From NCBI GenBank assembly GCA_014240365.1, contig JAAZXC010000009.1, positions 1 to 44,596 on the forward strand: 44,596 nt of DNA, written 5' to 3'. The DNA is from Acidimicrobiales bacterium. GTDB taxonomy: Bacteria; Actinomycetota; Acidimicrobiia; Acidimicrobiales; MedAcidi-G1. Below, piece after piece: positions 1 through 30,420 of the stretch; the stretch's first letter is position 1, and every line of letters begins with the position of its first letter. Both the position numbers and the translations under genes were made by a program. The notes beneath the pieces are model-generated. The model did no database searches. It was not told the DNA's origin and worked only from the letters and a program-made list of their open reading frames with translations.

Positions 1-855
1 GCGGAGGTTGAGTCCAGTGCCCGTCTTCTGACAGGTCTGGGGCGGAGGGCAAAGGGTCGATTCCAGAAAATCCACGATCAGGCCGACCGGTCACGCCAGC
101 GCGCCATGACGCTCGGAGCCGTGCTGCGGAGCCTGGCCTCCTTCAGCGTCTACGCCCTGGCCTTCATGATCTCGCTGGGGGAACTGGGTCTGAACCTGGG
201 ACCCCTCATCGCCGGCGCCGGAATAGTCGGCCTGGCGATTGGCTTCGGCGCGCAGTCGCTGGTCGCCGACTTCATCGCAGGGATCTTCATCATCATTGAG
301 GACCAGTACGGCGTCGGCGACTACGTCGATGTGGGAGCGGCATCCGGAACGGTCGAGAAGGTGACCCTCAGGACAACGGTGCTCCGGGATGTCAACGGTG
401 CCCTGTGGGTGGTCCCAAACGGCGAGATACGGAGGGTCGGCAACTCGTCGCAGCTCTGGGCCCGCACGGTCCTGGATGTCGACGTTGCCTACGACACCGA
501 CATCGACCTGGCGGCCAGCGTCATCAAAGAGGTCGCCGACGAGGTCTGGCGCGAGGAGCTGGAGTCGACGACCATCATCGAGGAGCCGGAGATCTGGGGC
601 GTGCAGAACTTCGGAGCCGACGCCATCTCCATCCGGCTGGCCGTGAAGACCGAACCCGGCGAACAGTGGGCGACAGGACGTCTCATTCGAGCCCGGTTGA
701 AGAAGGCGTTCGACGCCAACGGCATCGAGATCCCGTTCCCACAGCGGACGGTCTGGGTGAAGCAGGTGGACGAGCAGGCGCCAGCCGTGAAGCCCGTGAC
801 CACAATTCGCCAGGACCTGCTCGGAAAGCGGTCGGGTAGCGACGGCGAGGAGTAG
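1..855 (+). CDS. MscS-family mechanosensitive ion channel (5' end cut by window edge)
   Basis: The reading frame is open from base 1, so the N-terminus lies outside the window; the first internal ATG is at 106. The visible part starts with a basic helix, then a transmembrane segment around SVYALAFMISLGELGL, and then the Gly/Ala-rich pore helix typical of MscS (GAGIVGLAIGFGAQSLVADF), which leads into a beta domain with the family pattern DQYGVGDYVDV and WVVPNGEI. These are the pore-lining TM3 and the cytoplasmic vestibule of small-conductance mechanosensitive channels, which release solutes on hypo-osmotic shock. Family assignment is secure. Whether it is a simple MscS or a longer YggB/YnaI-like protein cannot be told without the N-terminus. 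It converges on the liv-type operon, with 24 nt between the two stop codons. Confidence 0.9.
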   Translation, partial: AEVESSARLLTGLGRRAKGRFQKIHDQADRSRQRAMTLGAVLRSLASFSVYALAFMISLGELGLNLGPLIAGAGIVGLAIGFGAQSLVADFIAGIFIIIEDQYGVGDYVDVGAASGTVEKVTLRTTVLRDVNGALWVVPNGEIRRVGNSSQLWARTVLDVDVAYDTDIDLAASVIKEVADEVWREELESTTIIEEPEIWGVQNFGADAISIRLAVKTEPGEQWATGRLIRARLKKAFDANGIEIPFPQRTVWVKQVDEQAPAVKPVTTIRQDLLGKRSGSDGEE

Positions 856-860
856 CCGTA

Positions 861-884
861 CCTGACGGTGGCCGTCGAGTCAGG
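861..884. terminator. Hairpin between convergent genes, candidate terminator
   Basis: A six-base perfect inverted repeat (CCTGAC at 861-866, GTCAGG at 879-884) surrounds a loop that can itself fold (GACGG/CCGTC). It lies just after the mscS stop codon and overlaps the end of the convergent transporter gene. There is no T-tract. Position is the main argument, so this is weak. Confidence 0.3.
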
Positions 885-3723
885 AGTCGCTGCGGTCGAT
901 GGCCCGGGTGTCGGTACCCAGGTAGCTGGCCACCACCAGGGGGTTGTTCCGAACCTCGTCGGGTGACCCCTCTGCGATCACCTGTCCGGCTTCCAGGCAG
1001 TAGACCCGGTCCGAGAGAGCCATGATCATCGGCATGTCGTGCTCGATGACGATCATCGTGGCGTGCAGCTCCTGCTGGATCTGCTTCAGCAGCGGCCCGA
1101 ATGCCTCGGTTTCACGCTGGGCCACGCCGGCGGTCGGTTCGTCCAGGCACAGGATCTGGGCGTCAAGGGCCAGGAGCCCCGCCAGCTCAACGATCCGTCG
1201 GGTTCCGGTGGACAGTTCGGCAACGAAGCCATCGGCGTAGCGACCCAGGCCCAGGAAGTCGATCAGGTCCGAGGCGTCGGAGGCCATGGCGCGTTCTGCA
1301 CGTGACGAGGACGGAAGGAACAGGGCGGTCGAAAGCAGGCCGGTGCGACCACGGGCCTCCAGCGCCACCTGGACCGTCTCGCGGACGGTCAACTCCGGGA
1401 AGAGTCGGGCGGCCTGGAACGTCCGGCCCAACCCGACGCGCGCCCGGGCAGAGGCCGAGTGGCCTGAGACGTCGGTGCCGAGCATCTCCACGACGCCCTC
1501 GGCCGGGGCGAAGCCGCCGATTGCATTCATGAGAGTCGACTTTCCGGCGCCGTTCGTGCCGATGAGGCCGACCACCTCGCCGGGATGGGCCACGATCGCC
1601 ACCCGGTCCACGGCACGCAGACCCCCGAAGGTGACGGACACGTCCGTCACAGCCAGGGCAGGGCCGTCGTAGACAGGTCGGTCCCGGGCACCACCGAGGG
1701 CAACGGCTGGTGGGCCGGTGGAGGTCTTGGAGGGCGCCTCAGGGAGGCGGGATTCGGCCCATCGGAGGAGAGCGTCCCTGGCCGAGTAGGTGATCTGGAT
1801 GAGCCCGCCCGGGAAGTACAGCAGCAGGATGAGCAGGCCGATGCTCGAGGTGAACAGGGGGATCAGCTCGTTGTCGGGCCAGAAGGCCGGTAGGCCGATC
1901 ACCCAGAGGGCACCGACGACCGGCCCCATGAGGGTTCCCAGCCCTCCAATAACCACTATCGACACCAGTCGAAGCGAGTCGCTGATCTGGAACAGGCGCT
2001 CTGTGTAGGGAATGTTCTGGACGAGGCCGCCGAGGAGTGCTCCACCCAGTCCGGCGATTCCCCCGGCCAGCGAGAAGGCGAGAAGCTTTGTTCGGGTGGG
2101 GCTGACGGTGTAGGCGGCAGCCGTGTACTCGTTCTCCCTGATCCCGATTATCGAGCGACCAATGCCGCTTGCCCGGAGTCGTGCCACCATCACCAGGAGC
2201 ACAACGAGAATTCCCAGGCAGAGGTAGTAGTAGGCCCGCTGGCTGGAGAGATCCAGCGGTCCCAGGCTGCCGCGCCGAAAGGGGATGCTCTGGCTGTTGC
2301 CGCCGTTGAGCATCGGGCGCCGGTAGAGGTACTGCTGTGCCGCCATGGCAAAGGCGAACGTCGTGACTGCCAGCAGTAGCCCCTTGACGCGCAGCGCGCC
2401 GAGGCCGATGAGGGCCGCTGTTATCGCCGTCATCGCGGCGGCGAGCAGCATGGAGACCAGGTAGGGCACCCGTGGGAAGGTGACGGAGAAGAACTCCCAC
2501 TTGTCGCCGATTCCCACCCCGACCGTGAGCCCCCGGTTGAACCCGGCAGCGAACAGGGCGCCGATTCCGGCGAAGGCCATCTGGCTGAGGGAGAGTTGGC
2601 CCGCCCATCCGGTCACGATGGTCATGGATAGGGCGCATATTGCAAACGTCAGGATGCTGGCGTACAGCAGGTGACGCGATGGTCTGGTCACGATGTAGGG
2701 CAGGACCAGGGCGATGGCCAGGAGGAGACCCAGCGCACTGGTCGACAGGCCCCTGATCCACCAGATCTCCCTGAGGCGTTCGGGGATCGGTCGACGTCGG
2801 GCCGAGAACGAGAACGATCCCGCGTCATCACCCGAGCCGCGGCTCTGGAAGGCGACGGCGATGGCTACCACCACGAACAGCAGGAAGTCGATGAGGCCGC
2901 CCTGGTTTATGAACACGAACTGAACATGGGCCTGGACGACACCGATGGTTACCCCGGCGGCCAGCGCCCTCGGGAACGAGACCATGCCGGCGATCACCGC
3001 CGCGGCCAGGGCTCGGGCCATGGTGTTGGGACCGAGGTTCGAGAGGCCTCCGATGCTTCCCCGGTTCGCCGAGAGCAGCAGCAGTGAGATCGTCGCCAGG
3101 AGGCCGGCGATCGTCCACACGAATAGCTGGACCATTTTCGGGTCGATACCCGAGAGTCGGGCGAGGTCGGCGTTGGTTGCAGATGCCTGGACCGTCTGGC
3201 CGAACACGGTGCGATTCAGGAACCAGGACAGGCCGACCGCCAGCAGCGGGACCACTACGAGAATGGTGAGTTTCGGGCCGGTGATCCTTAGGCCCAGTAC
3301 GTCATCCCAGATGAAGGTGAGGGGAGCCGGAAACCGTTGGCCGCGGGATCGTTCCAGGTCCGGGTAGGAGGCCAGGATGGCCTGCATCAGCTGGGCGATC
3401 CCGATGGTGGCCACCAGCACGATGACCCGGGGAGCGTCGAACAGGCGTCGGATGACCGCCCGCTCGATCAACGCCCCGACGATGATGCCGACCACAAGTG
3501 CAATGGGCAGTGCCAACCAGTAGGGGAAGTCGTAGTTGATCACCAGTAGGGCCATGAGCCCGGTGGCTGGGAGCCCCATGTTCCCCACGGCCAGGTTGAT
3601 GACCCGGGTCGACCGGTAGACGAGGACGACTCCGAGGGCGAGCAGGCCCAGGACCATCCCGTTCACGACACCGTCGAACCAGAGTTGGCGGGTGGTCCAG
3701 ACCGCCAGGACTGCGCTGTCCAC
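880..3723 (-). CDS. Branched-chain amino acid-type ABC transporter, LivH-LivM-LivG fusion
   Basis: One polypeptide of about 947 residues carries three parts of a HAAT/Liv-type importer. A LivH-like permease fills roughly residues 1-310, with the start pattern DGVVNGMVLGLLALG. A LivM-like permease fills about 330-650. A LivG-like ATPase fills about 690-940, with Walker A GTNGAGKST, signature LSTGTRR, Walker B ILCLDEP and H-loop IVIEHD. I chose the GTG at 3723, one base after the upstream stop; a frame-consistent ATG at 3771 would overlap the upstream gene by 47 nt. The companion LivF ATPase is fused to the upstream gene, so the two proteins together supply both permeases and both ATPases. No solute-binding protein is encoded in the window. 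As the last gene of the paa-containing run it may import an aromatic or short-chain acid rather than amino acids; that is inference. Confidence 0.9.
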   Translation of the reverse strand: MDSAVLAVWTTRQLWFDGVVNGMVLGLLALGVVLVYRSTRVINLAVGNMGLPATGLMALLVINYDFPYWLALPIALVVGIIVGALIERAVIRRLFDAPRVIVLVATIGIAQLMQAILASYPDLERSRGQRFPAPLTFIWDDVLGLRITGPKLTILVVVPLLAVGLSWFLNRTVFGQTVQASATNADLARLSGIDPKMVQLFVWTIAGLLATISLLLLSANRGSIGGLSNLGPNTMARALAAAVIAGMVSFPRALAAGVTIGVVQAHVQFVFINQGGLIDFLLFVVVAIAVAFQSRGSGDDAGSFSFSARRRPIPERLREIWWIRGLSTSALGLLLAIALVLPYIVTRPSRHLLYASILTFAICALSMTIVTGWAGQLSLSQMAFAGIGALFAAGFNRGLTVGVGIGDKWEFFSVTFPRVPYLVSMLLAAAMTAITAALIGLGALRVKGLLLAVTTFAFAMAAQQYLYRRPMLNGGNSQSIPFRRGSLGPLDLSSQRAYYYLCLGILVVLLVMVARLRASGIGRSIIGIRENEYTAAAYTVSPTRTKLLAFSLAGGIAGLGGALLGGLVQNIPYTERLFQISDSLRLVSIVVIGGLGTLMGPVVGALWVIGLPAFWPDNELIPLFTSSIGLLILLLYFPGGLIQITYSARDALLRWAESRLPEAPSKTSTGPPAVALGGARDRPVYDGPALAVTDVSVTFGGLRAVDRVAIVAHPGEVVGLIGTNGAGKSTLMNAIGGFAPAEGVVEMLGTDVSGHSASARARVGLGRTFQAARLFPELTVRETVQVALEARGRTGLLSTALFLPSSSRAERAMASDASDLIDFLGLGRYADGFVAELSTGTRRIVELAGLLALDAQILCLDEPTAGVAQRETEAFGPLLKQIQQELHATMIVIEHDMPMIMALSDRVYCLEAGQVIAEGSPDEVRNNPLVVASYLGTDTRAIDRSDS

Positions 3724-3724
3724 C

Positions 3725-5998
3725 TCAGCCGCCGTCCCGTCCCAGGAACACGGCCCGGGCCAGATCGTCACGCTCGAGCAACTCCTGGGCCGAGCCCTCG
3801 AACCTGATCTGGCCCTTCTCGAGGAAGATGGCCCTATCGGCGATTGACAGGGCCACGTTCAGCGACTGCTCGACCAGGATGATCGTCTGGCCCCGTTCCT
3901 GGAGTCGTTCGATGAGCTCGAGCAGGTCCTGGACGACGGTTGGGGCCAGCCCCAGCGAGAGTTCGTCGATCAGCAGGATCTCCGGCTCGTGTAGCAGGAC
4001 ACGGGCGAGGGCCAGCATCTGCTGCTGGCCGCCGGACATGGAGTTGGCGCGTTGGCCCTGACGACGTTCCAGGTCGGGGAACAGCTCCAGGACCGAGGCG
4101 ATGCGGCGTTCCACATCGACGCTGTCTCGCCGGTGGATGTAGGCGCCCATCACCAGGTTCTGGCGGACGGTCATGTCCGGGAACACGCCCTTGCCGCCCG
4201 GCAACTGCTGGATGCCGAGATGGGACCGCAACTGCGGCGAGGTGTAGGTGACCGTTCGGCCACCCAGACGCACGACCCCGCGCTCGGGGATCCCCAGCCC
4301 GCTGATAACGCGCAGGATCGTGGACTTGCCGGCACCGTTGGTGCCCAGCAGGGCCAGCGTCTCGCCCTTCTTCACCTCGAAGGCCACGTCGAACAGGACC
4401 TGGACGGGGCCGTAGGAGAAGTCGATGTTGTTCAGCTGTAGCGCTGGAATCTCGTCGTCGCCGGAGGTCCGTCGCTGCTCGTCCTGTTCGTCGAAGAGCT
4501 CCTGGACGTTGAGGGACAGGTCGTGTCGGACGTGCTTGGCGCCGCGGTACATGATCAGGCCGCCGAGAATGGCCGACGGGATGGTCAGCACCAGGGTGGT
4601 GACACGTGGGCCCCACGAGTCGGCGAACATGAACGAGATCAGGCCGCCGCCTGTACCGCCGATGAAGAAGATGTAGAGGGTGATGAGGGCGGTGCCGCTG
4701 CCCCGCAGGCGGTAGGGAACGATGGCCTGCATGACCGGGCTGACCATTGCGAACGCCGTGTTCAACATGACCAGCGTCGGGATCGAGAAGGCGATGAAGA
4801 GCGGGACGGTCGGCATGGCCCACTGGATGGGCTTGAATACCGCCGAGAAGCCGATGAGAGCACCGATCATGTGCAGGGTGCGCGTGGGGTTCTCCCGCCA
4901 GAGCCGGTCGAATTTGGGGCCGACGTAGACCAGGGACAGGACCGTGAAGAGGCCGGCGGCGGTGGCCCAGGCTCCCCGCTCGAACGATTCGAGGCCGAAC
5001 CTGTCCTCCAGCCATAGGTTCTCCAGCACTGGGGCGGTGAAGAGGCCGAATCCCAGGGCGCTGAATCCGACGACGACCGACTTGACGGTCTTGATCCGCA
5101 TCAGTCGCGAGAATGCGGCGTCCATCGAGACGGGAAGAGGGTCGTCTTCGGTGAACGACTCGCCTAGTACGTCCTCCTTCTCCCACCGTCCCCGCTGCGG
5201 CTCCTTCAGGAAGAAGGCGGCGATGGCGGCGATTGCCACCGGGATGCCGAGGATGTAGTAGGTCCACCGCCAGCCGTCCACTTCGCCCGGCCCGTTGGCG
5301 ATCGCCGCGATCCCTCCCACGAGGATGGGGCTGATGACCGCGATGAGGCGGCCGGTGCCCTTGTCGATGGCCCCGATCCGTCCGCGGATTCCGATCGGGT
5401 AGGTGTCGGCGATCATCGACGAGTGGACCGGGATGGTGTTGGCCTTGGCTATGCCCACACCGAACCGGGCCCAGAAGAAGCTGAAGGCGTTCACCGCCAT
5501 GCCGGAAAGGGTCACCATGGCGGCGAAGATGATGCTGGCCCAGCCGATGATGGGGACCCGCCGCATGCGGTCGGCGGCCCAGCCCATGGGAATGGCGCCA
5601 AGGACGACAAACGCGCCTGACGAGCTGGCGATGAAGGTGATGGTGCCGTCGCTTACGCCGAATGTGTCGCGGATGTCGGGGGCGAGCACGGCAATGGCTG
5701 CGGTCTGCAACTCGTCCAGGGAGTTGAGGATCATCAGGACCACGAACGTGGCAGCGCCACCGCCCATGGCGAGGCCCTTCTTGAGGCTGATCCCCTCGCT
5801 CTTGACACCCGGTAGCAGGTCGTCGGCGAAGAGGACCTCGCTGGACTGGTGCTCGGCCTGGCGGGCGGCCTCCTCGTCGAGGACCGTGGCGGCGAGCGCC
5901 GTGACGCCGCTGGATGCCGTTTCGTCCGGGACGGGTTCGACGGGCGCGCCGTCGTCGGCGATCACGGGCTCCTCTTCCTCGCGGCCGTCGTCTGCCAT
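3725..5998 (-). CDS. MFS permease fused to a LivF-type ABC ATPase
   Basis: This 757-residue protein has three parts: an acidic, probably cytosolic N-terminal stretch (about 1-75), a 12-helix-type major facilitator domain (about 78-500) and a complete LivF-like ATPase (about 518-757). The MFS part shows the loop 2-3 motif GWAADRMRR and the helix 4 Arg pattern FFWARFGVG. The ATPase has Walker A GTNGAGKST near 552, a Q-loop in GIQQLPGG, signature MSGGQQQ near 655, Walker B ILLIDE and switch-region LVEQS. MFS carriers normally use ion gradients, so an attached ABC ATPase is unexpected. Its neighbour encodes LivH-LivM-LivG and lacks LivF, so this ATPase most likely pairs with that LivG; the role of the MFS part is unknown. 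No frame break or composition jump is visible at the junction, so it looks like a real fusion. Confidence 0.88.
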   Translation of the reverse strand: MADDGREEEEPVIADDGAPVEPVPDETASSGVTALAATVLDEEAARQAEHQSSEVLFADDLLPGVKSEGISLKKGLAMGGGAATFVVLMILNSLDELQTAAIAVLAPDIRDTFGVSDGTITFIASSSGAFVVLGAIPMGWAADRMRRVPIIGWASIIFAAMVTLSGMAVNAFSFFWARFGVGIAKANTIPVHSSMIADTYPIGIRGRIGAIDKGTGRLIAVISPILVGGIAAIANGPGEVDGWRWTYYILGIPVAIAAIAAFFLKEPQRGRWEKEDVLGESFTEDDPLPVSMDAAFSRLMRIKTVKSVVVGFSALGFGLFTAPVLENLWLEDRFGLESFERGAWATAAGLFTVLSLVYVGPKFDRLWRENPTRTLHMIGALIGFSAVFKPIQWAMPTVPLFIAFSIPTLVMLNTAFAMVSPVMQAIVPYRLRGSGTALITLYIFFIGGTGGGLISFMFADSWGPRVTTLVLTIPSAILGGLIMYRGAKHVRHDLSLNVQELFDEQDEQRRTSGDDEIPALQLNNIDFSYGPVQVLFDVAFEVKKGETLALLGTNGAGKSTILRVISGLGIPERGVVRLGGRTVTYTSPQLRSHLGIQQLPGGKGVFPDMTVRQNLVMGAYIHRRDSVDVERRIASVLELFPDLERRQGQRANSMSGGQQQMLALARVLLHEPEILLIDELSLGLAPTVVQDLLELIERLQERGQTIILVEQSLNVALSIADRAIFLEKGQIRFEGSAQELLERDDLARAVFLGRDGG

Positions 5999-6023: not shown

Positions 6024-7307
6024 TCAGGAGCGGGGGACATCCTTCCACGCCTTTTCCCGGTCGATCCCCGGTTCCCTGGGCAGGCCCAGGGAACGTTCGG
6101 CCAGGTTGTTCTTCTGGACCTCGGTGGTTCCTCCACCGATGGAGATGCTGAACCGGTTGACAACCTCGGCCCTGACCCAGTTGCCAATGGGGTCGTTGCC
6201 AACCATGGCGGCCGGGCCGGCGAGTTCGGCGGCCAGGTTTCCGGTCATCACCCTGGTGCCCGCAGCCATGACCTTGGTGAGGGCCGGATCGAACGGTGGC
6301 TTGTGCCCGTTGCGTACCGACGACTGGATGCGCTGGCCCATGAGGGCCTGCAGCTTCTCCCGACTGATGATGGCAGCCAGTCGCTGCCTGACGATCGGGT
6401 CTTCCCGGCGGTCATTCGCCGAGGCCAGGTCGCGTAGGCGATCCGACGTCGGCGCACCGCCACCACGGCCTATGAAGGCGGCTTCGTTTGAGAGCACGGT
6501 TCGCGCTGGACCCCAGCCGCCGTGGATTTCGCCGACCACCTGGCCTGCGGGTATTCGTACGTCGGACATGAACACTTCGCTGAAGTGGGCCGAACCGTTG
6601 GCCTGGACCAGTGGTCGGACCTCGATCCCCGGTGAGGACATGTCGACCAGCAGGAAGGTGATGCCCCGGTGCTTGGGAACGTCGGGGTCGGTACGTGCGA
6701 GCATGAATCCCCAGTCGGCGAACTGGGCGCACGAGTTCCATACCTTCTGCCCGTCAACCACCCATTCGTCGCCGTCGCGCACCGCACGGGTGGCGAGGCC
6801 GGCCAGATCGGATCCGGCACCGGGCTCGCTGAACAGCTGGCACCAGGTCACTTCACCGCTGACCAGCGACGGCAGGAACCGGTCCTTCACCTCGGGCGTG
6901 GCGTGGGCCAGGAGGGTGGGCCCCAGCATTGCAATGGTGGCTCCTATGAAGCCGGGTCCAGAGCCGTAGGAGGTGGACTCTTCGGAGAAGATGCGTTCGG
7001 CCCAGGCCGGTTGTGCTCCTCCGCCGTACTCGGCGGGCCATGTGAGACCCGCCCAGCCGTGTTCGGCGAGGGTGCGCTGCCAGGCCCTACCGCGTTCGAA
7101 GTAGGCCCGGGCCTCGGCGTTATTGGGAAATCCTGATATCTGCCAGGGGTCGGCCGCGGCGAGCGGTTCCGCCCAGGTGGACAGGAAGGCGCGCGCCGAT
7201 GCCCTGAAAGCCACCTGGTCCGGTGATTCGGTGGCGCCACCTGCCGGGCTGGGAGGACGGTCGGGCACGGTTGCCAAGACTAGTGGCACCAGAATCTGAC
7301 GGACCAT
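6024..7307 (-). CDS. Acyl-CoA dehydrogenase family protein
   Basis: This is a flavin-dependent acyl-CoA dehydrogenase of about 427 residues, the usual family length. The FAD/substrate segment reads WCQLFSEPGAGSDLAGL, the middle domain contains VDGQKVWNS, and the C-terminal helix contains the family pattern SIGGGTTEVQKNNLAERSLGLP. The Glu in LSNEAAF sits where isovaleryl-CoA-type enzymes carry their catalytic base, but I cannot align it with certainty. I used the ATG at 7307; a TTG at 7352 in the same frame would add 15 residues. It lies between paaK and the transporter genes on the same strand, so its acyl-CoA probably comes from the same pathway. Electrons would go to ETF and then to a quinone through a protein such as the EtfD-like one at 28199-30400. 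Substrate unknown. Confidence 0.9.
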   Translation of the reverse strand: MVRQILVPLVLATVPDRPPSPAGGATESPDQVAFRASARAFLSTWAEPLAAADPWQISGFPNNAEARAYFERGRAWQRTLAEHGWAGLTWPAEYGGGAQPAWAERIFSEESTSYGSGPGFIGATIAMLGPTLLAHATPEVKDRFLPSLVSGEVTWCQLFSEPGAGSDLAGLATRAVRDGDEWVVDGQKVWNSCAQFADWGFMLARTDPDVPKHRGITFLLVDMSSPGIEVRPLVQANGSAHFSEVFMSDVRIPAGQVVGEIHGGWGPARTVLSNEAAFIGRGGGAPTSDRLRDLASANDRREDPIVRQRLAAIISREKLQALMGQRIQSSVRNGHKPPFDPALTKVMAAGTRVMTGNLAAELAGPAAMVGNDPIGNWVRAEVVNRFSISIGGGTTEVQKNNLAERSLGLPREPGIDREKAWKDVPRS

Positions 7308-7308
7308 C

Positions 7309-7323
7309 AGAAACTCGGTTTCT
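7309..7323. promoter_or_regulatory. Perfect inverted repeat AGAAAC-TCG-GTTTCT, candidate operator
   Basis: Six-base arms with a three-base centre form a perfect palindrome one base upstream of the ATG of the acyl-CoA dehydrogenase gene, in the 62-nt gap after paaK. It could be a repressor site or an mRNA hairpin masking the start. No regulator gene for the paa run is present in the window. Confidence 0.35.
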
Positions 7324-7369
7324 ATGGGCGACGTTGGCAGCCTGCGGGCCAAGGCCGGTCGTAGAGCCT

Positions 7370-8689
7370 TCAGGCCAGAGGGTCCACGTCGTCCACCTGC
7401 TCGAATACCCGCTGCACCTTGCCGACCTCGGTCCGTGGCATGGAACCCGCGGGTACCAGATCCAGGTCGGCCCGTATGCGGATCCGATCAGCGAGCACCC
7501 GGGCGACCCGATCAGCGACAGCAGACAGACGGTCTTCGGCATCGGCGGTGGCCTCGGCCCGGATACGCAGTTCGACCATGGGGCCACGTCGGTCCACGAC
7601 GATGGCGTAGTTGGCTCCCACGTCAGGGTCGTCCATGAGGACGGCCTCGATCTCGCGGGGATACACGTTTATGCCCCGGATGATGAGCATGTCGTCGGCA
7701 CGCCCGGTCAGACGCGCGATGCGGGTCCAGTGCCTGCCGGACACCCCGCCGTCGGGAAGTATCCGTGTGATGTCACCGGTGCGGTATCGCAGTACCGGCA
7801 TGGCCTCCTTGGTGAGCGTGGTCAGGACCAGCTCGCCGAACTCGCCGTCAGCGACTGGAGCACCGGTCTGCGGGTCCACGATCTCGGGTAGGAAATGGTC
7901 GTCGAAGACGTTCAGGGCGCCCAGGTCGTCCGGTGCCTCCATGGCCACGCCCGGGCCGATCACCTCCGACAGCCCGTAGATGTCCAGCGCCGTGAACCCG
8001 CCTCCCCAGGCGTCCTGGATGCGTGTCCGCATGCCCTCCGACCACGGTTCGGCACCCAGGATCCCGATCTCGACGCCCAACTGGTCGCGGATTCCCTGGG
8101 AGTGCGCCCGTTCGGCCAGCACGAGGCAGTACGACGGGGTTGCCAGCATGACCCGGCTCCCCAGGTCGGCGAGGAGCTGGAGCTGGAGGGCCGTGTTGCC
8201 GCCGGAGACCGGAACCACCGTGCAACCCAGACGTTCGCCGCCGTAGTGGAGGCCCAGGCCACCGGTGAACAGGCCGTAGCCGTAGCCGTTGTGGAGGATG
8301 TCCTCGGGGCGGGTGCCGGCCAGTGCCAGCGCCCGTGCGTTCACCTCGGCCCAGATCGCCAGGTCGTGGGGGGTGTAGACGACGATGGTCGGCTTTCCGC
8401 TGGTCCCGGAACTGGCGTGGAGACGGGTCGTTTCCGCTATGGGAATGGTGACCATGCCCAACGGGTACTGGTCACGCAGGTCCTGCTTGACGGTGAACGG
8501 CAGCGAGCCGAGGTCCTCGACCGAGGTGATGGAGGTCGGGTCGACGGCGGACAGACGGTCCTTCCAGAAGGCGTTGCCGCTGCTGGCGAGGCGGGCCACG
8601 AGGGCGGCCAGGCGCTCGCCCTGGAGGGAGTGTTTCTCCGCCGGGGGCAGGCCGACCATGTCAACCGGGTCGAAGGAAGCGCCGAGCAT
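7370..8689 (-). CDS. paaK: Phenylacetate-CoA ligase
   Basis: PaaK activates phenylacetate with ATP and CoA to phenylacetyl-CoA, the substrate of the PaaABC epoxidase encoded upstream in the same run. The 439-residue length is normal. The P-loop-like motif of adenylating enzymes reads HASSGTSGKPT, the aromatic/AMP region reads YGLSEVIGP, the hinge region reads RYRTGDI followed by GRADDMLIIRGINVYP, and the C-terminal catalytic Lys is in VGKVQR. The ATG at 8689 has AGGA seven bases upstream. The exact aromatic acid cannot be read from sequence, since the family also includes ligases for related acids; the adjacent paaZADBC genes make phenylacetate or a close analogue the best guess. Confidence 0.9.
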   Translation of the reverse strand: MLGASFDPVDMVGLPPAEKHSLQGERLAALVARLASSGNAFWKDRLSAVDPTSITSVEDLGSLPFTVKQDLRDQYPLGMVTIPIAETTRLHASSGTSGKPTIVVYTPHDLAIWAEVNARALALAGTRPEDILHNGYGYGLFTGGLGLHYGGERLGCTVVPVSGGNTALQLQLLADLGSRVMLATPSYCLVLAERAHSQGIRDQLGVEIGILGAEPWSEGMRTRIQDAWGGGFTALDIYGLSEVIGPGVAMEAPDDLGALNVFDDHFLPEIVDPQTGAPVADGEFGELVLTTLTKEAMPVLRYRTGDITRILPDGGVSGRHWTRIARLTGRADDMLIIRGINVYPREIEAVLMDDPDVGANYAIVVDRRGPMVELRIRAEATADAEDRLSAVADRVARVLADRIRIRADLDLVPAGSMPRTEVGKVQRVFEQVDDVDPLA

Positions 8690-8748: not shown

Positions 8749-9684
8749 TCAACCGGCCCTCACCACGGCGGAGGCGACGATCAGGTCCCAGGCGGCCAGT
8801 CCGACTGACTTGAACAGGGTGACCTCGTCCTCTGATGCCCGACCGGCGGCGCCGCTGCAGAGTTCTGCCAGGTCGCCGACGACGTGGTCGAACGACCATT
8901 TGCCGTCTGCGGCCGGGACCATCAGGTCGCCGGCTTCGGCTGCTGCTGCATGGCGGTTGTCCACGAATACCGAAGCGAGGTTGACCAGGTCGGAGTCGAC
9001 CTCGCGGCGTGCCACCGAGTAGGAACCGACCAGTCCCACGTGGGCGCCCGGCCGCACGGCTCCGGTGGGGACGACCGGGGTGGTCGACGAGGTGCAGCCG
9101 CACACGATGTCGCAGCCGGCGGTCTCCTGTGGGTCGGCGGCGACCAGGGCACGACCACCGGCCAGGTCGACCACCTCCGGGTCGGTGACGAAGGCCGCTG
9201 AGGATTGCGGGGTCCGGCCGGCCACGAGGATCCGCGTGATGCCCGGGCGCACCACCAGCATCGCCTCGACGTGTCCCCGGGCCTGCACGCCGGTGCCGAA
9301 TATCCCCAGCGTGGAGGCGTCGGGACGGGCCACCAGGTCGGCCGCCAGGGCTGAGGCGGCCGGGGTGCGCAGGGTGGTGAGTGCAGATCCATCCAGGGTG
9401 GCGGTCGGAACACCGGTCTCCCGATCGCAGTAGAGGTAGAAGCCGTGGATCAACGGCAGGTCCCGATCCCGGTTGCCCGAGATGACGTTGACGATCTTCA
9501 CCCCGATCCCGGCAGGTGACACCGCCGGCATCATGAGGAAGTCGTCGGTCGGGCCCAGGGAGACCTGGGTGCGGGGGTGGAGGTCGCCCAACAGCAGCGA
9601 TCCCGTCCGGAGCGCCTCTATGCACGCCGGCATGTCCACGATTGACCGGATGGCCGCAGCGTCGAAGTGGGGGAGTCCGTTCAT
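8749..9684 (-). CDS. Ornithine cyclodeaminase/mu-crystallin family protein
   Basis: This 311-residue protein has the two-part fold of the family. Near the start is the conserved Lys in GVKIVNV (K63), then the substrate-binding Arg in TTLRTPAASA, then a Rossmann segment GIFGTGVQARGH for NAD(P)H. I start at the ATG at 9684 because it is preceded by GAGG with good spacing and lies 10 nt after the stop of the racemase gene; a start further upstream would overlap that gene. Members include ornithine cyclodeaminase, alanine dehydrogenase, tauropine-type enzymes and 1-pyrroline-2-carboxylate reductases. The immediate neighbour is a proline-racemase-family enzyme, so a reductase or cyclase acting on (hydroxy)proline-derived pyrroline carboxylate is plausible. 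That is inference from context. Confidence 0.85.
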   Translation of the reverse strand: MNGLPHFDAAAIRSIVDMPACIEALRTGSLLLGDLHPRTQVSLGPTDDFLMMPAVSPAGIGVKIVNVISGNRDRDLPLIHGFYLYCDRETGVPTATLDGSALTTLRTPAASALAADLVARPDASTLGIFGTGVQARGHVEAMLVVRPGITRILVAGRTPQSSAAFVTDPEVVDLAGGRALVAADPQETAGCDIVCGCTSSTTPVVPTGAVRPGAHVGLVGSYSVARREVDSDLVNLASVFVDNRHAAAAEAGDLMVPAADGKWSFDHVVGDLAELCSGAAGRASEDEVTLFKSVGLAAWDLIVASAVVRAG

Positions 9685-9694
9685 CAGGTGGACC

Positions 9695-10690
9695 TCATCG
9701 GAACACGAACCCCAACCCGATCGGGTCGTGGGGGTCCAGGTGGAAGGTTGTGGTGGCATGCCGGTGGGCTGAGCCCTCGACGCTGGTCACCAACCCGGCG
9801 TCGGTCACCCTGACCACCCGGGCGGTGAACATGTCGCCTGCCACACCGTGGTTGTGGAATGGGACCTCCGGAGCGATCCGGCCGTGGTGGTGGAGCAGGG
9901 CCAGCCTGGCTGAGGTGCCGGATCCGCACGGAGACCTGTCCACCTGTCCGTCGGCGAAGATCGTGACGTTGCGTTCCTGCAGTGGGTCCCCTCCGAGGGT
10001 CTCGTGGATGATCGTTCCGTACAGCCCGGAGAGACGGCCATCGGTCGGGTGGACCACCGATGGATGGTCGCCGAGGGCCGCCTTGACCTCCCGACCCAGG
10101 GCAATCAGGTCGTCGACCCGGTCGGCGGTTGCCGTCAGCCCGAGGTCGTCGATTGCCACAGAGGCGTAGAAGGCACCTCCGAACGACACGTCTGCGGTGA
10201 CGTGTCCGAAGGAGGTACCGACGCCTAGGCCGGTAGCCGACACGAATGAGGGCACGTTGGTGAAGCGCACCGAGGCCACCCGTCCGTCCACCATGCGGGC
10301 CACCGTGTGCAGGCGACCGGACGGAGCGTCCACCACCACGTCCACCTCTCCGTTCTCCGGGGCCGTGATCCGCCCTGTGTCGATGGCCCAGGTGGCGATG
10401 GCGATGGTGCCATGGCCGCAGGCGGTGGAGAACCCGTCCTTGTGGAAGAACACGATGCCAACATCGCCGCCGGGGCCATCTGGTGGCACCACCATGCCGC
10501 CGTACATGTCGGCGTGGCCACGTGGTTCGTGGCAGAGGAAGCGCCGATGGTCATCCAGGTTCGCCATTGCCCAGGAGCGCCGGTCCAGGACCGAGTCGCC
10601 CTGCATGCCACCCAGGTCCACGATCCGGAAGGGTTCGCCGGCAGTGTGGTAGTCGTCGGCGACGATCTCCTCGCCGGGGCCCAGCACCAT
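9695..10690 (-). CDS. Proline racemase / 4-hydroxyproline 2-epimerase family protein
   Basis: The 331-residue protein carries both catalytic cysteines of the two-base racemases: Cys91 in ACGHGTIA and Cys255 in DRSPCGSGTSA. In trans-3-hydroxy-L-proline dehydratases of the same fold the first Cys is replaced by Thr, so this protein looks like a racemase or epimerase. The N-terminal substrate loop DYHTAGEPFRIV is also present. I placed the start at the ATG at 10690, which gives the usual length; a GTG at 10723 follows a possible GGAG and is an alternative. It lies between paaC and the ornithine-cyclodeaminase-family gene and may act with the latter on hydroxyproline or proline. Why such a pair sits in a phenylacetate run is not clear. 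Confidence 0.87.
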   Translation of the reverse strand: MVLGPGEEIVADDYHTAGEPFRIVDLGGMQGDSVLDRRSWAMANLDDHRRFLCHEPRGHADMYGGMVVPPDGPGGDVGIVFFHKDGFSTACGHGTIAIATWAIDTGRITAPENGEVDVVVDAPSGRLHTVARMVDGRVASVRFTNVPSFVSATGLGVGTSFGHVTADVSFGGAFYASVAIDDLGLTATADRVDDLIALGREVKAALGDHPSVVHPTDGRLSGLYGTIIHETLGGDPLQERNVTIFADGQVDRSPCGSGTSARLALLHHHGRIAPEVPFHNHGVAGDMFTARVVRVTDAGLVTSVEGSAHRHATTTFHLDPHDPIGLGFVFR

Positions 10691-10728
10691 GGCGACGAAC
10701 CGTAATGCGTCGGCCGCTACCACTCCTG

Positions 10729-11487
10729 CTACCAGACGGCCGCAGGGTCGAGGTCGATGACCTCGCGCATGCGGACCAGCAGGGGGCCGAAGTCGGGGTG
10801 CCGGACGAGGCGTCCCGTGGGTGCCATCGGCTCTATCCGGTCGGGGTCGAAGTCGAAGCGGTGCCTGACCCTGTCCTTCCACTCGTCGAGCCGGGTGTCG
10901 AACGGTGCCGAGGCCACCCCGGTGGCCACCACCTCGGCTTCCCCGGCAACTGGATCGAAAATGCCGATCGCCAACGGGAGCAGGTCGGCCAGCGCCGCCT
11001 GCAGACGCTCTGCGCTGTCGGCAGCCGGAAGGAGGACGTCGAGTAGGCCGTCAGCGTGTCGACGGTGGTACCGCTCTTCGCGTTCGGCCCGGGCTGCGGC
11101 CTCGGCGAGTGGGATCAGCGACGATTGCGCCACCTGCTCCCATCGGAGCTGTTCGGCGGAGTCGTACAACCAGTGGCGGACCAGGGCGTGGGCCCAGTCG
11201 TCGGAAGCCACCTCGACGAGTTGTGCGCAACGCCAGTCGTCCGGTGAAGGCCGGAAGGCCAGTTCGTCGATCCTGAGGTCGTTGTCGACCGGGTCGCCGT
11301 CGCCGGCCACGATGGCGTACAGGGCGGCCGCATGGCCCAGTTCGTCCTGCGCAATGGAGCTGAAGGCCAGGTCCTCCTCCAGGAACGGCGCCACCCCGAT
11401 CCATTCCGTGTGCTGCTGGCCCATCAGGTGCTCGTCGTCGGCGAAGGCCAGGAGGAACTCGCGGACGGAGCTGCCAAGGCCTGTCAT
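10729..11487 (-). CDS. paaC: 1,2-phenylacetyl-CoA epoxidase, structural subunit PaaC
   Basis: PaaC is the ferritin-like partner of the catalytic subunit PaaA in the multicomponent epoxidase that converts phenylacetyl-CoA to its ring-1,2-epoxide. The 252-residue length fits. Helical ferritin-like pattern is visible in EEDLAFSSIAQDELGHA and later in EREERYHRRHADG. In known complexes PaaC does not hold a working diiron site and instead supports PaaA. The ATG overlaps the paaB stop by four bases (ATGA), so the two are translationally coupled. Confidence 0.93.
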   Translation of the reverse strand: MTGLGSSVREFLLAFADDEHLMGQQHTEWIGVAPFLEEDLAFSSIAQDELGHAAALYAIVAGDGDPVDNDLRIDELAFRPSPDDWRCAQLVEVASDDWAHALVRHWLYDSAEQLRWEQVAQSSLIPLAEAAARAEREERYHRRHADGLLDVLLPAADSAERLQAALADLLPLAIGIFDPVAGEAEVVATGVASAPFDTRLDEWKDRVRHRFDFDPDRIEPMAPTGRLVRHPDFGPLLVRMREVIDLDPAAVW

Positions 11488-11759
11488 GCACCGCCCTCCC
11501 GCGTGTTGCGGCGGTGCTCGGCAATGGCCCTGCCATCGTTGTGACGGTGGGGCTTGTCGGAGTTGGGGGCAATGAACTCCAGGTCACCGAGGATCACGTT
11601 CTCACGGTCGACCAGCCACAGGCGGTCGCCCTCGGCCCGACGTGCGTAGCTCTCGCGGGCGAGCACGAGGGCCAACTCGTCGTCGGGAGCGTCCAGGGAA
11701 CCGGCGTGTCGGAACTCGTCCCTGCCGTCCTTCTTGAGGAATACCTCGTAGCGCCGCAT
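11484..11759 (-). CDS. paaB: 1,2-phenylacetyl-CoA epoxidase subunit PaaB
   Basis: This is a 91-residue subunit of the epoxidase. It has the expected start MRRYEVFLKKDGRDEFRHAG, the central ESYARRAEGDRLWLV and the C-terminal part with HRHNDGRAIAEHRR. In the known complex PaaB bridges PaaAC units. I set the start at the ATG at 11759, with GGAG five bases upstream and the paaD stop just before it; the same frame stays open much further upstream but that part is non-coding shadow of paaD. It sits between paaD and paaC, an order unlike the E. coli ABCDE arrangement. Confidence 0.93.
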   Translation of the reverse strand: MRRYEVFLKKDGRDEFRHAGSLDAPDDELALVLARESYARRAEGDRLWLVDRENVILGDLEFIAPNSDKPHRHNDGRAIAEHRRNTREGGA

Positions 11760-11767
11760 CTGTTCTC

Positions 11768-12232
11768 CTAGGCCCGCATCACTTCGACGACCTCGGCGCA
11801 GGCCGGGCAGGTGTGGACGGCCCGGCACCGGCTGGGGCCGAACATGGACTGCTCGTGGGTGGGTGAGCCACAGCGTGGACAGGCAACGGGTCCGCGTCCG
11901 ATGCGGACCGCCACCGTGAACTCGCGGGCCATCGTCGCCCGTGCTGTTTCGGTGACCCGGTCGACCCCCCAGACAGGAGCGCCCAGCCACCGCACGTCCA
12001 CGCCTTCCACACCGTCGACGGCGTCGACGGCACGGCGCACATCGTCGGCAATCATCGAGAGTGCCGGACATCCCGAGAAGGTCGGGATCAGCCCGACCGC
12101 CACGTGGCCGTCGTGTGTGGTGTCGAGTGATTCCAGCAGGCCCAGGTCGACGATGGAGATTCCCGGATACTCGGGGTCGTCAACGGTCGCCACAGCGGCC
12201 CGGACCCGGTCGACGAGAAGGTCGGTGTTCAC
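11768..12232 (-). CDS. paaD: PaaD, MIP18-family maturation factor of the epoxidase
   Basis: The 154-residue protein has an N-terminal MIP18/DUF59 domain with DPEYPGISIVDLGLL and the conserved Cys55 in FSGCPALS. Its C-terminal zinc-ribbon-like tail has CPRC at 118-121, Cys136 and CPAC at 142-145. PaaD is needed for activity of the phenylacetyl-CoA epoxidase, probably through Fe-S or metal-site maturation. GTG start at 12232 overlaps the paaA stop (GTGA). It lies between paaA and paaB instead of after paaC. Confidence 0.92.
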   Translation of the reverse strand: MNTDLLVDRVRAAVATVDDPEYPGISIVDLGLLESLDTTHDGHVAVGLIPTFSGCPALSMIADDVRRAVDAVDGVEGVDVRWLGAPVWGVDRVTETARATMAREFTVAVRIGRGPVACPRCGSPTHEQSMFGPSRCRAVHTCPACAEVVEVMRA

Positions 12233-13167
12233 GCGGCGACCTCTGCGGGGCGGGGCGGGGCGTCGTCCAGGACCCGGCGCACCCAGTGGGTGTCCGCCCA
12301 GTTGGCCGCGGCATCGGCGATGCGTCGGGCCGAGTCGGGTCCGCCCATGGCCAGGGTCCGCTTCAGCGGTTCCCAGTCAATGGGGCCGGAGGTCCACGTT
12401 CCGGTAGCCGTGTCGTGGATGAGCCCGGGGTCAGGGACGCTGAATCCGTACGACATGAGGAGGGGGACGAACTTCTGGACCCAACGGGCACGCAGCACCT
12501 CGTTGCGTTCCGACTTGATGTGCCAGCGGAGCAGGACGTCTCCCGGCTTCGAGTCGGGGCCGAAGAGCTGGAGGGAGGGCCACCACCAGTCGTCGAGGGA
12601 CTGCTGGAACATGGTCCGCTGTATCTCGGTGCCGTTGGCGATGCGCAGCATGCGTTCCTCGCCCATTCGCATGTGGAAGCCCTCCTCGGTGATGATCCGC
12701 TTCAGGATCCGGCGGTACGGGCCATAGGAGCAGTTCTTGAAGACGGCCTGCTGGCTGGCGAGGGCAGCGGCGTCCACGAGGAACGAGATCGCCACCTGGT
12801 CCCCCCACGTCTTGGCCCGGTAGTGGAACACGTTGTGGAACTTCGACTTCCCTGCGAACAGGTCCTCGAGCATGTCCCGTCGGGTCTTGATGGCCAGGTC
12901 GGCACCCACCATGTACAGCAGGTGGGCGTGGCCTATCTCGTCCTGGGTCTTGGCCAGCACCGCCATCTTGTGGCGAAGGCCCGGGGTCCGGGGGATCCAG
13001 TCCCGCTCGGTCAGGCCACCCATCAGTTCCGAATTGGCGTGCATCTCGATGAAGGCGAACACGGCCTGTCGGTACGCGCCGGGCATGTCGTCATCCACCT
13101 CGACGATCCCACCGTCGTCCAGGAAGGCCTCGAAGTCATCCATGGTCGTCCACGTGCGCCGCATCAC
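12229..13167 (-). CDS. paaA: 1,2-phenylacetyl-CoA epoxidase, catalytic subunit PaaA
   Basis: This is the diiron oxygenase subunit, 312 residues, close to the E. coli length. Probable iron ligands are visible: Glu47 in HANSELMG, Glu77 and His80 in KTQDEIGHAH, and Glu162 and His165 in EEGFHMRMGE. It inserts one oxygen atom into the aromatic ring of phenylacetyl-CoA. The GTG at 13167 overlaps the paaZ stop (GTGA); the ATG at 13164 is an equally possible start one codon later. The reductase PaaE, which feeds electrons to this site, is not in the window and must come from elsewhere or be replaced by another ferredoxin reductase. Confidence 0.94.
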   Translation of the reverse strand: MMRRTWTTMDDFEAFLDDGGIVEVDDDMPGAYRQAVFAFIEMHANSELMGGLTERDWIPRTPGLRHKMAVLAKTQDEIGHAHLLYMVGADLAIKTRRDMLEDLFAGKSKFHNVFHYRAKTWGDQVAISFLVDAAALASQQAVFKNCSYGPYRRILKRIITEEGFHMRMGEERMLRIANGTEIQRTMFQQSLDDWWWPSLQLFGPDSKPGDVLLRWHIKSERNEVLRARWVQKFVPLLMSYGFSVPDPGLIHDTATGTWTSGPIDWEPLKRTLAMGGPDSARRIADAAANWADTHWVRRVLDDAPPRPAEVAA

Positions 13168-15215
13168 GCCACCCCGTCCGGTGCGCCGTTCATGCCGGGG
13201 CGGTTGGCGACCATCGTCAGCACGTCGTAGGCCGCAACCACCTCGTCGTCCTGGTTCACGACCTGTGCGTCCCAGGCCACCTCGCCGTAGCCCGCTCCGG
13301 CTCGCAGTGTCTTGCGCTTGGCGGTCAACCAGACGGTCAGGGTGTCACCCGGGTAGGTCGGCTTGGCGAAACGGCACCGGTCGATTCCGTAGTTGGCGAG
13401 TACGGGACCGGGGTCCGGCCATACGAACAGCCCGGCGGCCAGGGACAGCACCAGGTAGCCGTGCGCCACCCGGCCTCCGAAGATCGGGCTGGCCGCTGCC
13501 GCCTCTTCGTCCATGTGGGCGTAGAAGTGGTCGCCGGTGGACTCGGCGAACGCCTCGATGTCATCGATGCTGACGGTCCGGGACCCGGTGCGAAGTGCCG
13601 TGCCCAGCTCCAGGTCGTCGAAGTGGAGCTTGAATGGGTGGCCCCGGTCGGCGTGACGGGTGGCGCCGGGCATCCACTGGCCCACGATGCGTGTCAGCAC
13701 GTCAGGCGAGCCCTGGAAGGCCGTGGTCTGGAGGTGGTGTCGCACGCCGCGCAGGCCGCCCATCTCCTCGCCACCGCCGGCTCGCCCGGGTCCACCGTGC
13801 AGGAGCATCGGGAGAGGCGATCCGTGGCCTGTGCTTGTGGAGGCCACCGAGGCATCCACGACCTGCACCCGGCCGTGGTGGGCTGCGATGCCGAGAGCGA
13901 TTGTCGCCGCCTCGTCCGCGTCACCGCTGTAGATCGATGCCACGAGGCTGCCCTGTCCGAGCGCGGCGAGCCTCACGGCCTCGTCCGGCCCGTCGTAGGC
14001 GACGAGGGTGGCGACCGGACCGAATGCTTCCGTGGCGTGGATCACAGGCGCTTCGGAATCCGTTGCCAGGAGCAGCGTGGGCGCCAGGAATGCGCCGACC
14101 GCCGGGTCCACGTCGTGGAATGTGCAGGAGTCGACGACGACACGGGCCGCTGTCCGTAGGGCGGCAATGGCGGCGGTTGCCTCATCGCGCGCGGTGGTGC
14201 CCACCAGGGACCCCATGCCGGTGGCCTCATCGGCCGGGTCGCCGACCTTCGTTTCTGAGAGGGCGGCGGCGATTGCCTCGGCAGCCGCGTCGACGTGGAT
14301 GGCTGGAACCAGGATTCGGCGGATGGCCGTGCACTTCTGGCCTGCCTTGACCGTCATCTCCCGTGCCACCTCGCCCACGAACAGGTCGAACTCGGTCGTC
14401 CCCGGTACGGCGGCAGGCCCCAGGATCGCGGCGTTCAGCGAGTCGGCCTCGGCGTTGAAGCGGACCGATCGACCGACCAGGTTCGGGTGAGCCCTCAGGG
14501 CGGCTGCCGTGACGGCCGAGCCGGTGAAGCCGACGTGGTCCTGGCCACCCAGGTGGTCGAAGAGATCTCCGATGCTGCCGCAGACGAGTTGGAGGGCGCC
14601 CTCCGGGAGGATTCCGGATTCCACGATGCAGCGCACCATCGCCTCGGTCAGGAATGCGGTGGGAGTGGCTGGCTTGATGATGGTCGGCATGCCGGCAAGT
14701 AGTGCTGGTGCCAGCTTTTCGAGGGGCCCCCAGCAGGGGAAGTTGTAGGCGTTCACCTGTACGGCCACGCCGTGGCGGGCAGTCGCCACGTGGGCGGCAA
14801 TGAATGATCCGTCGCGGGCCAGTACCTCGGGTTCGCCCTCCAGGAGGACGTGGCCGTCCGGGAGTTCACGTCGGCCCTTCGAGGCGTAGCCGAGGAGCAC
14901 GCCGGCGCCGCCCTCGATGTCGATCCAGGAGTCGTTGCGGGTCGCCCCGGTAGCCGTCGAGAGGGCGTAGAGCCCTTCCTTCTCCGCCAGGAGGTGCTGG
15001 CCGAGGGTCTTGAGCAGGGCGGCGCGCTCGTGGAAGGTCATGGACCGCAGTGCCGGTCCGCCGACGTCGCGGGCGTAGGCGGCGGTGGCGCCGAAGTCGA
15101 TTCCGTCGCTGGACACAGTGGCGAACGGCTCTCCGGTGACGGCGTGGCGGGTGACCACGCCTTCGGCCGAAGGCGTATGCCAGGCGCCCAGAACGTGACT
15201 TTCCAGTGTGTGCAC
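13164..15215 (-). CDS. paaZ: Bifunctional oxepin-CoA hydrolase / 3-oxo-5,6-dehydrosuberyl-CoA semialdehyde dehydrogenase
   Basis: PaaZ opens the oxepin-CoA ring and oxidises the resulting aldehyde. The protein has 683 residues against 681 in E. coli. An aldehyde dehydrogenase domain fills about 1-520, with catalytic Glu256 in FNAEADSLN and Cys295 in AGQKCTAIRR, the same numbers as in E. coli PaaZ. A MaoC-like hydratase domain fills about 525-683, with the Asp562-His567 pair in GDHFYAHMDEEAAAASP. I start at the GTG at 15215, which has GGGAG five bases upstream and aligns with the E. coli N-terminus; the frame stays open for another 123 codons upstream without family similarity. It is the first gene of the minus-strand run and overlaps paaA by four bases. 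Confidence 0.95.
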   Translation of the reverse strand: MHTLESHVLGAWHTPSAEGVVTRHAVTGEPFATVSSDGIDFGATAAYARDVGGPALRSMTFHERAALLKTLGQHLLAEKEGLYALSTATGATRNDSWIDIEGGAGVLLGYASKGRRELPDGHVLLEGEPEVLARDGSFIAAHVATARHGVAVQVNAYNFPCWGPLEKLAPALLAGMPTIIKPATPTAFLTEAMVRCIVESGILPEGALQLVCGSIGDLFDHLGGQDHVGFTGSAVTAAALRAHPNLVGRSVRFNAEADSLNAAILGPAAVPGTTEFDLFVGEVAREMTVKAGQKCTAIRRILVPAIHVDAAAEAIAAALSETKVGDPADEATGMGSLVGTTARDEATAAIAALRTAARVVVDSCTFHDVDPAVGAFLAPTLLLATDSEAPVIHATEAFGPVATLVAYDGPDEAVRLAALGQGSLVASIYSGDADEAATIALGIAAHHGRVQVVDASVASTSTGHGSPLPMLLHGGPGRAGGGEEMGGLRGVRHHLQTTAFQGSPDVLTRIVGQWMPGATRHADRGHPFKLHFDDLELGTALRTGSRTVSIDDIEAFAESTGDHFYAHMDEEAAAASPIFGGRVAHGYLVLSLAAGLFVWPDPGPVLANYGIDRCRFAKPTYPGDTLTVWLTAKRKTLRAGAGYGEVAWDAQVVNQDDEVVAAYDVLTMVANRPGMNGAPDGVA

Positions 15216-15252
15216 CGATGCTCCCGTCAGCAGGGGTTTCCGCTGTCGCAAG

Positions 15253-15281
15253 ATCGTATAACCTTTGATGATATTGGACAA
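15253..15281 (-). promoter_or_regulatory. Predicted promoter of the paaZ operon
   Basis: On the minus strand TTGTCC (15281-15276) and TACGAT (15258-15253) are separated by exactly 17 bases, about 38 bases upstream of the paaZ GTG. The segment is AT-rich against the surrounding GC-rich DNA. On the plus strand TTGGAC at 15275-15280 overlaps the same -35 box and may serve the divergent operon, although no good -10 follows it. Confidence 0.5.
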
Positions 15282-15338
15282 GTCCCCACAGCGGGATACG
15301 CCGGTATTGCCCACCGGCGAGGACGTGGACGACCATGG

Positions 15339-25025: not shown

Positions 25026-25591
25026 CAGACCTACACCAGGCGCCCCGGGCGTCGTTCACCGACATGTCCACCTCCACGAAGGAGGACTGGATGGTCATCA
25101 TGGGCCAGCGGACCGAGTTGGAGCAGGCCCTCCCTGACCGGATCATCGAGCAGTTCGGCCACCTCCGCGACGACTACGGGGGCTTCCCCGTGGATCGCCT
25201 CGAGCACAGCCTGCAGACGGCCACCCGGGCCGAACGCGACGGCCGCGACGACGAGTACGTGTTGTGTGCCCTCGTCCACGACATCGGCGATCCGCTCACG
25301 CCGTACAACCATCCCGACGTGGCCGCCGCGATCCTCAAGCCGTTCGTGTCCGGTGCCAACCACTGGATGGTCGAGCACCACGGCATCTTCCAGGGGTACT
25401 ACTTCTGGCACCACCTCGGCATGGACCGAGACACCCGCGACCTGTTCGACGGACACGAGCACTACGAGCACTGCGCCACGTTCTGTTCTGAGTATGACGC
25501 CCCCGCCTTTGACCCCTCGTACAACTCCAACTCGTTCGAGCACTACCTCCCGTTGATTCAGGAGGTCTTCGGGAGGAACCCCCGGCTCTGA
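25022..25591 (+). CDS. HD-domain protein, PhnZ-like (predicted diiron oxygenase or phosphohydrolase)
   Basis: This is a 189-residue HD protein. Metal ligand candidates are His62 (RLEHSLQTA), His86-Asp87 (VHDIGD), His97 or His114, His119/120 (VEHHGIF) and Asp164. The stretch DYGGFPVDRLEHSLQTA resembles the N-terminal part of PhnZ, the mixed-valence diiron oxygenase that cleaves 2-amino-1-hydroxyethylphosphonate, including a Tyr ten residues before the first His. The Glu three residues after that Tyr in PhnZ is Phe here. I therefore favour an oxygenase-like member with a different substrate, but a phosphohydrolase cannot be excluded. ATGA overlap with the VOC gene. Confidence 0.78.
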   Translation: MTDLHQAPRASFTDMSTSTKEDWMVIMGQRTELEQALPDRIIEQFGHLRDDYGGFPVDRLEHSLQTATRAERDGRDDEYVLCALVHDIGDPLTPYNHPDVAAAILKPFVSGANHWMVEHHGIFQGYYFWHHLGMDRDTRDLFDGHEHYEHCATFCSEYDAPAFDPSYNSNSFEHYLPLIQEVFGRNPRL

Positions 25592-25634
25592 GGCCGGCGG
25601 GCCGACACCCCAGCGTGGCTAGCATCGACGCCGC

Positions 25635-26614: not shown

Positions 26615-26630
26615 GGGCCCCGACCGGATC

Positions 26631-27149: not shown

Positions 27150-27153
27150 CGCC

Positions 27154-28149: not shown

Positions 28150-28198
28150 GTCGGTCGGGTGGTGGAGCCCGGTGGCTTCGGTCGGCGTCGGGGAGCGG

Positions 28199-30400: not shown

Positions 30401-30420
30401 AGCGATGGCCGGTGGTCCGG

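Follow-up and report, generated by a model that had tools for sequence, protein, structure and literature searches.

The window, by which we mean the whole stretch of 44,596 nucleotides that was analysed, contains on its reverse strand a gene coding in one frame for an MFS domain and a LivF-type ABC ATPase, together with a downstream LivH-LivM-LivG (LivHMG) gene (Table 1). In the first of these proteins, Pfam MFS_1 matched residues 90–448 (E = 1.6e-31, 109.9 bits, cut-off 33.4), with motif A reading GWAADRMRR (residues 139–147), and ABC_tran matched residues 537–679 above its cut-off (E = 3.1e-28), with Walker A (GTNGAGKST, residues 552–560), the signature (SGGQQQ, from residue 655) and Walker B (LLIDE, last residue E679) all present. 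NCBIfam assigned residues 520–753 to the LivF/UrtE type with a score under the equivalog cut-offs, and contains no model for an MFS-LivF fusion. The downstream chain, scanned as the mechanical ORF (880–3771, reverse strand), matched BPD_transp_2 in two stretches (5.6e-56), ABC_tran and BCA_ABC_TP_C. These matches bear out the original prediction in so far as it had described an MFS domain with its loop 2-3 motif joined to a complete LivF-like ATPase, a LivHMG fusion as the downstream gene and, in consequence, the four Liv parts packed into two proteins together with an additional MFS carrier. The LIV-I/HAAT features found thus comprise the LivH and LivM permease units and both LivF- and LivG-type ATPases, each with Walker A, signature and Walker B. 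No substrate-binding protein (Peripla_BP_6) was found on the window's contig, and two Peripla_BP_6 genes are located elsewhere in the genome.

Table 1. Position of the features in the window and of the large genes adjoining three type B operons (locus given before the coordinates).
Feature	Position	Strand	Remarks
MFS-LivF fusion gene	3725..5998	(-)	757 aa, ATG start; kept in relatives
12-TM Spinster-like MFS domain, about residues 77-488	4535..5770	(-)	Pfam MFS_1, model and fold match, HnSpns profile match
Helical linker, residues 489-512, runs on from TM12	4463..4534	(-)	model, row alignment
LivF-type ABC ATPase, residues 516-754	3737..4453	(-)	Pfam/NCBIfam, motifs, 1JI0 match
LivH-LivM-LivG fusion partner	880..3723	(-)	likely GTG start 3723; mechanical ORF extends to 3771
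Acyl-CoA dehydrogenase	6024..7352	(-)	conserved neighbour
PaaK-like CoA ligase	7370..8689	(-)	conserved neighbour
OCD/mu-crystallin family reductase and proline-racemase-family gene	8749..10882	(-)	context
paaC/paaB/paaA-like epoxidase genes and PaaZ-like Aldedh-MaoC gene	10729..15584	(-)	context
MscS channel gene, convergent with livHMG	106..855	(+)	conserved neighbour
Large gene adjoining type B operon	L075:6273-8006	(-)	placed as substrate-binding protein; no Pfam match
Large gene adjoining type B operon	L077:12168-14003	(+)	placed as substrate-binding protein; no Pfam match
Large gene adjoining type B operon	L089:11553-13292	(+)	placed as substrate-binding protein; no Pfam match

The MFS-LivF fusion in the window is real. 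Between 60 and 22 codons ahead of Walker A the window has no in-frame ATG, GTG or TTG, and the linker therefore offers no start codon from which a separate LivF could be made by internal initiation; among the relatives, no conserved internal start was found. The likely start of livHMG is the GTG at 3723, one base past the MFS-LivF stop, and not the one at 3771 with which the mechanical ORF begins; the one-base gap suggests translational coupling of the two genes.

The fusion lies downstream of a phenylacetate-type gene run (paaA, paaB, paaC, PaaZ-like), the racemase/OCD genes, the ligase and the dehydrogenase. A CoA ligase and/or an acyl-CoA dehydrogenase was found upstream of the fusion in 16 of the 19 near relatives, racemase and OCD genes were present by it in nine and the convergent mscS gene in 13 of them. 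At other loci, a CoA ligase adjoins an operon of the type B described below (L089), and an enoyl-CoA hydratase gene was found nearby (L078). From these gene neighbours, our best guess is that the imported substrate would be a carboxylate that is turned into a CoA thioester after entry.

Conservation, architectures and descent of the fusion

The genome scan found MFS and LivF in one frame, with Walker A and the signature reached, in all 19 Acidimicrobiia relatives (MFS-part identity to the window 66–95%), and at 18 of 20 further loci the two parts shared a single frame as well, the exceptions being L084, which is cut by the contig end, and L086, which carries a stand-alone MFS. Across these 19 and 18 fused loci the domain order was MFS then LivF without exception, with LivH-LivM adjoining where the contig permits. 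Another copy (57.5% identity across 98% of the query) was found in Embleya sp. NBC_00888 (Streptomycetaceae) on a complete linear replicon of 5.73 Mb, in the gene row MFS-LivF, LivHMG and Peripla_BP_6 lipoprotein; among 72,556 plasmid records, a match covering at least 80% of the protein was obtained in Embleya only. The domain order of the window is thus shared in Acidimicrobiia and beyond, and no close relative was found to encode MFS and LivF as separate genes; separate genes would have spoken against the original prediction. A stand-alone LivF (70% identical) in genome G504 stops at the contig edge and so does not point to a split, and those short frames of close relatives that were checked likewise stop at a contig edge. 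That the fusion is an artefact of a frameshift, a chimera or contamination is barely credible, as nothing was found in favour of it and the same frame was seen in more than 35 loci and on one complete replicon.

With the full protein as query, matches at E <= 1e-100 were obtained in 73 of 296 genomes of the class. In a sample of the phylum, 20 of 396 genomes had a match, seven of them outside the class. The MFS-part profile matched 174 of 397 genomes of the order (E <= 1e-70); 133 of 292 good-quality genomes and 96 of 203 genera of the order had a match, and matching genomes often carried two to four copies of the MFS part. Among the matches listed in the order, all open frames had at least 725 aa bar one at a contig end; frame length alone is no proof of an in-frame LivF, and whether LivF is in frame was read directly only for the 19 relatives, the 20 further loci and Embleya. 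MFS-LivF fusions are widespread in Acidimicrobiia and of ancient origin.

The Liv parts were distributed over the chains in several ways. In type A (the window, Embleya, L090 and others), MFS-LivF (about 750 aa) is accompanied by LivHMG, and in type B, LivHM (about 711 aa) is accompanied by MFS-LivF-LivG (about 1000 aa), often with a large putative substrate-binding protein of 580–615 aa coming after it; among those of the large proteins that were scanned, none had a Pfam match, and the three listed in Table 1 measure 577–611 aa. An intermediate (L085) has LivHM, MFS-LivF and LivG as three separate chains. LivG shifts between chains and the MFS part remains on LivF. Apparent single chains of 1690–1805 aa (LivHM-MFS-LivF-LivG) were rejected, their first 700 residues being an out-of-frame open stretch over livHM: at L071, L073, L074 and L088, from GC-rich genomes, other frames across livHM lack a stop for some 700 codons and continue into the MFS gene, which gives rise to false ORFs of 1700 aa.

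In the tree of the MFS parts, all fused rows and the stand-alone copies L053 (G308) and L065 (G382) formed one clade (100/99), and the stand-alone L066 and a Sphingomonas MFS fell outside it. L053 and L065 are nested inside fused groups and therefore look like later separations; the stand-alone copies of G308 and G382 are distant from the window and do not belong to its close relatives. In the LivF tree, the fused LivFs formed a clade with one separate LivF (G146) apart from the canonical LivFs (100/100). The simplest reading of both trees would be one ancient fusion and few losses, more than one fusion being the alternative. At L086 (9147–10553, reverse strand), G308 has a stand-alone MFS falling inside the fused clade, and Liv genes were not detected within the 19.5 kb of this locus. 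The separate LivF of G146 is part of a livH-livM-livG-livF operon (L077:458–4101, forward strand), which is directly followed by a type B operon.

Comparison of the window with four relatives gave dN/dS values of 0.11–0.33 for MFS, 0.10–0.31 for LivF and 0.18–0.38 for LivH. Pairwise distances of the MFS part were correlated with those of LivF (r = 0.93, a value reached in none of 2000 label permutations) and of LivHM (r = 0.97); these correlations show co-inheritance and not contact, because shared descent alone would give them too. MFS, LivF and LivHM are thus inherited together, and purifying selection acts on them. A chain shared by two independent proteins of one pathway only for equal amounts or co-regulation, with the MFS part physically unconnected to the ABC complex, would agree with the existence of stand-alone MFS copies and with the several ways in which LivG, LivH and LivM likewise fuse. 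However, LivG switches chains, yet MFS and LivF stay joined despite a mean pairwise identity of 33% among the MFS parts, and we consider such a fusion of convenience very improbable.

The MFS module and its connection to LivF

Profile searches in the PDB matched the MFS part to HnSpns (7.9e-45), Spns1 (1.1e-28), DgoT (2.4e-27) and SPNS2 (about 1e-25). The AlphaFold2 model of the window protein had a mean pLDDT of 81.2 and a pTM of 0.76, and its residues 77–506 aligned with human Spns1 (VIA-align, Z = 37.3, rmsd 3.3, 411 residues), although it is the profile search and not the fold Z-score that singles out Spns, other MFS chains, e.g. OxlT, lying within 1. The LivF part of the model matched Thermotoga maritima 1JI0 (TMt 0.91; Z = 33.0 over residues 516–754).

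In the profile alignment, the motif A relay of HnSpns (Asp87-Arg91-Asp142), a motif with a role in alternating access of that protein (PMC9440201), corresponds to D143-R147-D198 of the window protein. D143 is conserved in 25 and both R147 and D198 in all of the 28 aligned rows; R144 is also part of motif A. The intracellular protonation switch of HnSpns, Glu129 (PMC9440201), is replaced by K185 in the window, and this position is occupied by K or R in 17 and by Glu in one of the 28 rows. The Asp41-Arg42 position in TM1 reads Q98-T99 in the window, and in the type B rows it has D in 9/9 and R in 5/9. An acidic pair in TM1 (D95-E96), one turn before this position, is widely kept, and D493 in the linker is invariant (28/28 rows). 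Spinster proteins are marked by H+-coupled transport of lysolipid-like substrates. The module resembles Spinster proteins (HnSpns 6E8J, human Spns1/Spns2) in having them as its best PDB profile matches and top, if tied, fold match and in the motif A charge relay, and differs from them in K185 for Glu129, in the missing Asp41-Arg42 and in the ATPase fused on; by these features it is Spns-like and not a proven Spns member. From its conserved residues, the module looks able to alternate, without the Spns proton switch, and Spns-type H+ coupling is unlikely in the window form.

In the model of the window protein, TM12 and the linker form one helix (residues 464–512) that runs into LivF, and the model of a type B protein (989 aa; pLDDT 79.8, pTM 0.64) has a helix at the equivalent place (residues 404–451), giving a TM12-to-LivF helix of 48–49 residues across both models, in which the relative placement of the domains is too unreliable to use. 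A single continuous helix in both models is what might be expected if the MFS part no longer carried substrate and instead anchored or positioned LivF, or sensed substrate and gated the ATPase through the TM12-linker helix, sensing through a transporter-like fold being known of transporter-like receptors. The almost complete lack of splits between MFS and LivF points in the same direction, as does the loss of the Spns proton switch with the TM1 acidic pair D95-E96 kept instead. We nevertheless regard such an accessory role as rather unlikely, given that the module retains all of its 12-TM fold as well as the charge relay of motif A, that purifying selection on MFS among near relatives is much like that on LivF, and that motif A serves alternating access in MFS proteins rather than anchoring.

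The presence of the TM12-to-LivF helix in two divergent subfamilies could also be taken to mean that hydrolysis by LivF and LivG drives or gates the MFS module via this helix, which would make the MFS fold a primary pump or a stage of one. With the proton switch lost, another energy source is conceivable, and the fusion is ancient, rarely split and co-inherited with LivHM. LivF-type NBDs, however, work through the coupling helices of LivH and LivM, and LivG, LivH and LivM, the expected partners of LivF, are already encoded in the operon; moreover, we know of no ATP-driven MFS, and the rigidity of the helix is deduced from a single-chain model without position-error estimate. An ATP-coupled MFS therefore seems quite improbable to us.

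Proposed function and relation to known transporters

Considering the CoA ligase and Paa genes nearby, the locus most likely codes for a LIV-type carboxylate importer into which an MFS module is built. To the broader reading, in which MFS-LivF belongs to a LIV importer as a subunit and its conserved MFS module looks transport-capable, we assign a probability of about 0.85. In this LIV-type (HAAT-like) ABC importer, MFS-LivF would form one subunit and the LivHMG chain the second. Both chains are expected to assemble, with LivH/LivM providing the path for ABC translocation and with an ATP motor made up of LivF and LivG; a substrate-binding lipoprotein would hand over the carboxylate, and the adjoining CoA ligase would then activate it. 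In such an importer, the MFS module may be an alternating-access carrier kept permanently beside the ABC pore, offering a second route, not driven by ATP, for uptake or exchange of this lipophilic carboxylate or a related one. We put this forward tentatively, as the likeliest of the modes considered but at somewhat less than even odds: the motif A relay is kept, MFS is under purifying selection and stand-alone MFS copies exist, but separation has been rare over deep divergence, which is not required of an independent carrier, the Spns proton switch and Asp41/Arg42 are absent in the window, and its contig yielded no substrate-binding protein.

Importers of the LIV-I/HAAT family use ATP to take up branched-chain amino acids or related compounds. 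Compared with E. coli LivHMGF with LivJ/LivK (LIV-I/HAAT), the locus has the same LivH/LivM (BPD_transp_2), LivG with BCA_ABC_TP_C and LivF, and, beside the Embleya copy, a Peripla_BP_6 gene. It differs in that LivF bears an N-terminal 12-TM MFS domain, that LivH, LivM and LivG form one chain and that the substrate is probably other than branched-chain amino acids. Fusions among Liv parts are already known and annotated: in LivM-LivG and LivH-LivM fusions (e.g. WP_137117433.1, Azospirillum, annotated as 'ATP-binding protein/permease') such parts are likewise joined in frame, but these fusions join parts of one ABC transporter and include no MFS carrier. In ArsAB and ECF transporters a membrane carrier may act alone or with an ATPase; they are not MFS and do not share one chain with a LIV-type NBD, so that the likeness is one of analogy only. 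We found no description of an MFS-LivF fusion in the literature searched, a search that leaves out most subscription journals and TCDB, so that the fusion may be listed somewhere.

The two largest groups of transporters, MFS carriers and ABC transporters, are taught as distinct classes with respect to their energy source. With an MFS-ABC fusion that is widespread, ancient and rarely broken and lies beside a complete LIV importer, the question of whether an MFS fold can be coupled to an ATP motor becomes accessible to direct experiment, and Embleya sp. NBC_00888, which is completely sequenced, provides the whole operon outside uncultured lineages. In annotation, MFS-LivF genes are likely counted as one transporter class or the other, and marine Acidimicrobiia may rely on these genes for taking up aromatic or lipophilic carboxylates.

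Elsewhere in the window, long ORFs of 350, 393, 606 and 218 aa without Pfam match, some of which may be non-genes, are located at 25335–30661, and a RimK-type ATP-grasp ligase with a C-terminal TrkA_C domain is encoded at 23274–24485 on the forward strand.
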